This document shows positions 15,927 through 15,975 of a DNA stretch of 20,055 nucleotides, piece by piece. The translations under genes were made by a program, and so were the position numbers. The stretch is from a virus, in the IMG/VR virus record IMGVR_UViG_3300044621_002214, positions 1 to 20,055 of that record; one strand, written 5' to 3'. The notes below the pieces were generated by a model. It searched no databases. It had not been told where the DNA came from and was given only the letters and a program-made list of their open reading frames with translations. The stretch's first letter is position 1; every line of letters begins with the position of its first letter.

Positions 15927-15975
15927 TCCTGCTCCCTGGTTGGGATTCATTCGGGTTCAATCCCTGAAGCAGGAG
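15927..15975 (+). ncRNA. tRNA-like minihelix 1 (no anticodon arm)
   Basis: Acceptor-like stem TCCTGCT (15927-15933) pairs perfectly over 7 bp with AGCAGGA (15968-15974), followed by discriminator G15975. Between them is a 17-nt linker holding GGTTGGGAT, like a D-loop, then a 5-bp T-stem TCGGG (15951-15955) with CCTGA (15963-15967) around a canonical 7-nt T-loop TTCAATC. D-stem and anticodon arm are absent and CCA is not encoded. It should fold into a tRNA elbow, a possible substrate for RNase P and RNase Z. RNase Z cleavage after G15975 would leave CUAACCUUAAAACC before ATG 15999. Confidence 0.75.

Follow-up and report, generated by a model that had tools for sequence, protein, structure and literature searches.

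A close counterpart of the elements reported here is mitochondrial tRNA punctuation, in which tRNA-shaped elements lie between the genes of a polycistronic RNA and are excised, as working tRNAs, by RNase P and RNase Z. tRNA-like modules act as processing signals in longer, non-tRNA transcripts: mascRNA, the MEN-beta tRNA-like RNA and the TMERs of gammaherpesviruses belong here. Unlike the elements below, these are made by Pol II/III in eukaryotes and still have a remnant of the anticodon-side stem. The tRNA-like domain of tmRNA combines an acceptor and a T-arm with a reduced D-arm and is devoid of an anticodon arm. According to a review (PMC11143913), bacterial RNase P accepts acceptor/T-arm substrates and some mRNAs; its reported model and non-tRNA substrates include acceptor/T-stem hairpins, external guide complexes, intergenic RNAs, the C4 RNA of phages P1/P7 and the gene 32 mRNA of T4. 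The part recognized in such substrates is a coaxial acceptor/T-arm with R73–C74.

The stretch of viral DNA analysed here, 20,055 nucleotides long and referred to as the window, harbours two elements, termed elbows, that share with tRNA (RF00005) a 7-bp acceptor, a 5-bp T-stem, a 7-nt TTCRANY T-loop and the GG of the D-loop, but do not form the cloverleaf with its anticodon arm. ARAGORN found neither a tRNA nor a tmRNA at copy 1 (0 tRNA genes) and its tmRNA search of the elements was negative; Rfam at gathering cut-offs gave no match to the elbow. Unlike tmRNA, elbows contain no mRNA-like domain or tag peptide, measure ∼40–60 nt and mostly have no encoded CCA. The marks of mitochondrial punctuation decode, whereas phage elbows do not, and cutting of the latter by tRNA-maturation enzymes is proposed. 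The RNase P substrates listed above are engineered or single natural cases; elbows are natural, recurrent, equipped with a D-loop-like GG and present in many copies per genome. Hammerhead ribozymes of phage genomes resemble elbows in their intergenic slots, their leader length and presumably their outcome, but cut themselves, while an elbow would need host enzymes.

Table 1. Features of the window that bear on the elbows; cleavage positions are predictions
Feature	Coordinates	Strand	Remarks
Hammerhead ribozyme 1	15400..15462	+	Full core and three stems; predicted self-cleavage after C15456
78-aa ORF	15682..15918	+	Upstream of elbow 1; replaced by a 70-aa ORF in all three relatives
Elbow copy 1	15927..15975	+	Direct reading, RNA folding, descriptor scan; covariation in relatives
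Leader of elbow 1	15976..15998	+	23 nt, CTAACCTTAAAACC..., up to ATG 15999
173-aa ORF	15999..16520	+	Downstream of elbow 1; phrog_10310, unknown function
Hammerhead ribozyme 2	16524..16576	+	Core and stems; predicted self-cleavage after A16570; repeat family D2
Sliding-clamp ORF	17614..18807	+	Immediately precedes elbow 2; phrog_947 (DNA polymerase processivity factor)
Elbow copy 2	18820..18869	+	Descriptor scan; compensatory change in relative L121
Leader of elbow 2	18870..18890	+	21 nt, up to ATG 18891

Copy 1 is ordered TCCTGCT-CCCTGGTTGGGATTCAT-TCGGG-TTCAATC-CCTGA-AGCAGGA-G. The acceptor-like stem (TCCTGCT, 15927–15933, with AGCAGGA, 15968–15974) is Watson–Crick paired at 7/7 positions, and the T-stem (TCGGG, 15951–15955, with CCTGA, 15963–15967) is paired at 5/5, including one G-U; between its strands lies the T-loop TTCAATC (15956–15962), which fits the standard TTCRANY. 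The GG-bearing, D-loop-like segment GGTTGGGAT occupies 15938–15946 and could in addition form a small D-arm-like hairpin, TCCC-TGGTT-GGGA. The unpaired tail consists of a discriminator-like G73 (G15975) followed by C74 (C15976), and no counterpart of an anticodon arm is present in the directly read sequence. The preliminary description had seen in this spacer an anticodon-less tRNA elbow that cannot decode, and both points are borne out; of the extent 15927–15975 that it proposed, the paired part ends at 15974 and base 15975 is the unpaired, discriminator-like position. A descriptor scan of the window returned two perfect elements only, at 15927–15974 and 18820–18868, against 0.04 elements per shuffled window in a looser scan and 0.0 in a strict one. 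The minimum free energy structure of copy 1 is the elbow fold, its stability moderately above that of shuffled sequences; as the z-score is only −1.85, weight is placed on comparative evidence. A terminator reading of the window elbows is disfavoured by the absence of a T-run 3′ of either copy. Past a 68-aa ORF, at window positions 19763–19810, stands a strong hairpin, AAACCCAGGC...GCTTGGGTTTTTT, which is likely a bidirectional intrinsic terminator.

Copy 2 comprises an acceptor-like stem (18820–18826/18862–18868), a T-stem (18845–18849/18857–18861), the T-loop TTCGATT (18850–18856), a GG-bearing linker, TTACATTTGGGTATTCAG, and a tail of A73 (18869) and C74 (18870); the gene downstream is a 38-aa ORF starting at ATG 18891. 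Both copies are present in three relative contigs of IMG/VR. In one of these, L121, the acceptor of copy 2 has changed in a compensatory manner from TCCGGAA/TTCCGGA to TCCGGGA/TCCCGGA, with L123 displaying the G-U intermediate. A covariance model built on the copies detected a third, strongly divergent element in relative G001 (L121:9125–9177). Copy 1 is retained while the genes on either side of it are exchanged: besides the upstream replacement given in Table 1, the 173-aa ORF is swapped for a ParB-like or a 160-aa ORF in two relatives. An open reading frame traverses elbow 1 and shares the frame of the gene that follows; a coding reading was rejected, as the downstream gene is different in L122 and L123 and the read-through is not conserved.

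Judged from sequence comparison, the window elbows are members of a widespread phage RNA family, to which neither Rfam nor ARAGORN gave a match. The collection was first scanned for a D-loop/T-loop pattern; among the matches listed, three contigs proved real and most of the remainder were coding coincidences, that is, an identical codon run without acceptor pairing; a chance control with a gap of 9–11 yielded 17 hits. The scan with the correct gap returned a mixture of tRNAs and elbows, which ARAGORN was used to separate. A tail-free pattern (TCCCG...T-arm...CGGGA, with spacing below tRNA length) recovered 83 stretches in viral contigs, 65 of which display at least four of the five pairs that the pattern leaves free. 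In bacterial genomes, where most hits are due to chance, such pairing was seen in 37 of the 126 matches that the pattern gave. Perfect elements were found in named hosts including Flavobacterium degerlachei, F. noncentrifugens and Rikenella microfusus, and near-perfect ones in Parabacteroides and Dysgonomonas contigs; the family also occurs in Bacteroidota prophages. Many Bacteroidota elements were collected with a fixed TCCCG/CGGGA, so that acceptor conservation among them is partly ascertainment. Only four of the 148 Bacteroidota genomes scanned contain a match, which points to a phage or prophage element rather than a chromosomal one and led to rejection of the reading as a core bacterial element.

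Several viral contigs carry the elements in series. In L174, a 71-kb contig, an element is located at each of five successive gene boundaries, four of them with full 7-bp acceptors of differing sequence. The 87-kb contig L289 has 13 T-arms; 12 occupy a single strand, in clusters at the gene boundaries around the contig ends, and several of these elements have an encoded CCA. On the reverse strand of L467, near 1208 and 2531, some elements of the L289 type bear short hairpins with odd-sized or GNRA loops in place of the anticodon arm, and are intermediates between tRNA and elbow. The context is different in L471 (IMGVR_UViG_3300044691_000286, 1779–2150): four elbow-like elements are packed within ∼350 nt among G-rich repeats, unlike the elements at gene boundaries.

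The family extends to named actinophage isolates. Contig L287/L469 matches 139 phage records, 108 from Streptomyces and 31 from Mycobacterium; in those Streptomyces phages that were listed, a single unannotated stretch of 34–48 nt matches, at 90–100% identity. Between gp40 and gp63 of Mycobacterium phage Indlulamithi the motif is found in 13 of 15 annotated gaps longer than 45 nt, and in the corresponding region of Mycobacterium phage Damien in 9 of 11. In the occupied Indlulamithi gaps the elbow with its RC tail comes after the stop codon; a small hairpin usually follows, then AGAGAGGATG and the start codon. A strict scan of the whole Indlulamithi genome gave 11 elements on the forward and 0 on the reverse strand (0.13 in shuffles). 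Damien gave 8/0, Send513 10/0 and Streptomyces phage Lika, whose local genes are on the minus strand, 0/5; all 34 elements are on the coding strand. The small hairpin, located 3′ of most actinophage elements and before the ribosome-binding site (L474, L475, L479, L478), has a mean z of −1.47. At L474 10964–11011 (Indlulamithi 40963–41010) the elbow overlaps the annotated gp53 start (40980); the sequence suggests that the true start is later, from a Shine-Dalgarno-like AAAGAGGATG further downstream.

The elbow structure is strongly backed by covariation in the sequences compared. MAFFT misaligned the 5′ strand among diverse members, and its alignment was replaced by one to a covariance model. 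When 64 elements were aligned to the first covariance model, an alignment that is fitted to the structure, 96.3% of cells were paired, versus 70.4% after shuffling and at most 57.8% in slid controls. Double changes affect 11 of the 12 pairs and amount to 168 cells, versus 43.8 in shuffles and at most 37 in slid controls; a larger set of 92 matches agrees. The three outer T-stem pairs, fixed by no search pattern, contribute 24, 35 and 32 double-change cells. Part of the covariation set was collected with the fixed TCCCG/CGGGA, and the actinophage elements without any acceptor constraint.

The 3′ tail is also conserved. Among full 7-bp elements unselected for it (n=37), R73 is present in 30 and C74 in 33, and GG occurs in the linker of 36; the actinophage-type elements (n=47) have a purine at 73 in 45 cases and C74 in 44. 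Most tails read RCAA, RCTA or ACG and do not encode CCA, L289-type elements with CCA being an exception. Genuine host tRNA genes, drawn from two genomes each of Bacteroidota and actinobacteria, have C74 in 82 of 82 cases and a full CCA in 19 of 82, and C75 is mostly absent from the elements as it is from most of these host genes. The 3′ signature of the elements is therefore that of host tRNA genes; R73–C74 is read by bacterial RNase P.

Other spacers of the elbow-bearing operon accommodate hammerhead ribozymes. Both window hammerheads fit CUGANGA, GAA(A), stems I–III and a cleavable H17. The first scores 28.8 bits (E 0.11) with Rfam RAGATH-1-hammerhead, below the gathering threshold of 56.3; the second, not listed by Rfam, has one mismatch beside the core in stem II, and is kept in relatives L121 and L123. 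Predicted hammerhead cleavage would leave leaders of 22 nt to ATG 15479 and 21 nt to ATG 16592, and the elbow leaders measure 23 and 21 nt if the cut falls after R73. The leaders are also alike in sequence, TGAATCTTAAAACC and CTAACCTTAAAACC. An analogous arrangement is found in L329, an unrelated contig: four hammerheads (reverse strand, 3035–3086, 3595–3646, 11320–11366 and 11862–11912, between co-directional genes) and one elbow are each placed after a stop codon and ahead of the following ATG, and both kinds leave similar leaders. A further hammerhead occurs in L234. None was found among the ∼116 listed loci from the coding-coincidence scan, numbers that are too small to judge co-occurrence firmly. 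The shared stop-to-start slot and similar leaders, along with the R73–C74 tail, suggest RNA cleavage. That the leaders match in length speaks slightly for a 3′ cut as the origin of the downstream 5′ end; the 21–24 nt may also simply reflect the room needed for translation to start.

These observations are best accommodated by a form of tRNA punctuation, to which a probability of about 70% is assigned: the phage message would be cut at the elbows by RNase P of the host together with a tRNA-processing step at the 3′ edge. Within a polycistronic transcript, each elbow would fold into an acceptor/T-arm shape recognized by the tRNA-maturation enzymes of the host. For copy 1, the 5′ cut would fall at 15926/15927, most likely by RNase P through the T-loop, the coaxial acceptor/T stack and R73–C74, and RNase Z or trimming would act near 15975/15976. 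The upstream gene would thereby be separated from the downstream one, whose message would acquire a new 5′ end ∼21–24 nt before the start codon; in the actinophages the small hairpin at this end could protect it. Hammerheads would do the same job by self-cleavage, side by side with elbows. The elements possess the T-loop, coaxial stack and unpaired R73–C74 of RNase P substrates, the tRNA-shaped 3′ end without encoded CCA of RNase Z substrates, and the placement between successive genes on the coding strand that is typical of punctuation. The preliminary description had proposed, from a single sequence, an mRNA processing signal for these two enzymes, and mentioned neither the two hammerheads of the operon nor how large the family is; covariation, gene-boundary placement, coding strand, R73–C74 and the hammerhead slots lend comparative support to that proposal, in which the enzyme and the side or sides of the cut are putative. 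Counting against cutting are the U1–A72 pair that closes the acceptor end, which is unusual for tRNA, the imperfect acceptor/T-stem junctions of several actinophage-type elements, and one L174 element that apparently overlaps the upstream stop codon and would lose that codon to a 5′ cut.

An elbow left uncut might instead stay in the mRNA to protect or regulate it: host proteins that bind tRNA (EF-Tu, tRNA-modifying enzymes, or RNase P acting as a roadblock) would attach to it, and it would stabilize the message or tune translation of the next gene. A compact knob just 5′ of the start signal would suit such a role, as would the second small hairpin after the actinophage elements, whose z is below −1 in 34 of 47 cases. 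However, the slot and leader length equal those of self-cleaving hammerheads in two unrelated phages, and a mere knob needs no unpaired R73–C74 tail, which makes this explanation unlikely. It is quite improbable that elbows are excised as stable small RNAs of ∼45 nt with a trans-acting role as decoys, either for RNase P itself or for host defences that target tRNA, mRNA cutting being a by-product. In favour of decoys, the anticodon arm, the target of many tRNA nucleases, is the one tRNA feature not kept, and several differing copies exist per genome; yet acceptor sequences vary among copies, and placement follows successive gene boundaries rather than one highly expressed locus.

Exchange of neighbouring genes raises the question of whether the elements are recombination linkers that enable phages to swap gene cassettes. 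The genes flanking elbow 1 vary among close relatives around a constant element, and in the L191/L192/L194/L252 group the element likewise stays in position while the downstream gene changes. Homology used for recombination would conserve sequence, whereas the elements keep their pairing but not their sequence; linkers are accordingly held to be very improbable, and cassette swapping may be a secondary effect of the elements. Derivation from decayed tRNA genes, or from integration (att) remnants of them, is suggested by the resemblance of the T-arm and acceptor 3′ half to tRNA 3′ ends, the usual prophage attachment sites. The two acceptor strands and the D-loop-like part nevertheless persist with compensatory changes, many copies per genome reside at gene boundaries, and the members counted have no anticodon arm; the remnant reading was rejected on covariation and its likelihood is minimal.

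A broader proposal can be made, for which the odds appear slightly better than even: elbows and hammerheads would be interchangeable cutting marks in a general code of mRNA segmentation, evolved independently or exchanged among phages of several bacterial phyla, by which a single long transcript, cut by host tRNA-maturation enzymes or by itself, yields near-monocistronic messages with set 5′ ends. The host could not easily refuse to read such a code, since its RNase P is both essential and conserved. The elbow family is without description in the literature searched, mostly outside subscription journals, and it may have been mentioned earlier as unexplained intergenic repeats of mycobacteriophages. 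The principle of punctuation is known from mitochondria; an anticodon-less, repeated phage mimic that shares its slots with hammerheads is undescribed as far as could be tested.

Should the punctuation reading be true, an RNA element absent from the annotation would mark one gene boundary after another in cultured and sequenced mycobacteriophages and Streptomyces phages. Annotation would need correction, as for at least one Indlulamithi start codon (gp53) inside an element. The minimal acceptor/T-arm substrates that RNase P accepts in the test tube would gain a natural role, the elbow would exemplify an element sharing the place of a self-cleaving ribozyme, and a simple route to locating processing sites would be at hand. 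The operon structure, 5′ ends and stoichiometry of these phages would then need to be re-read.
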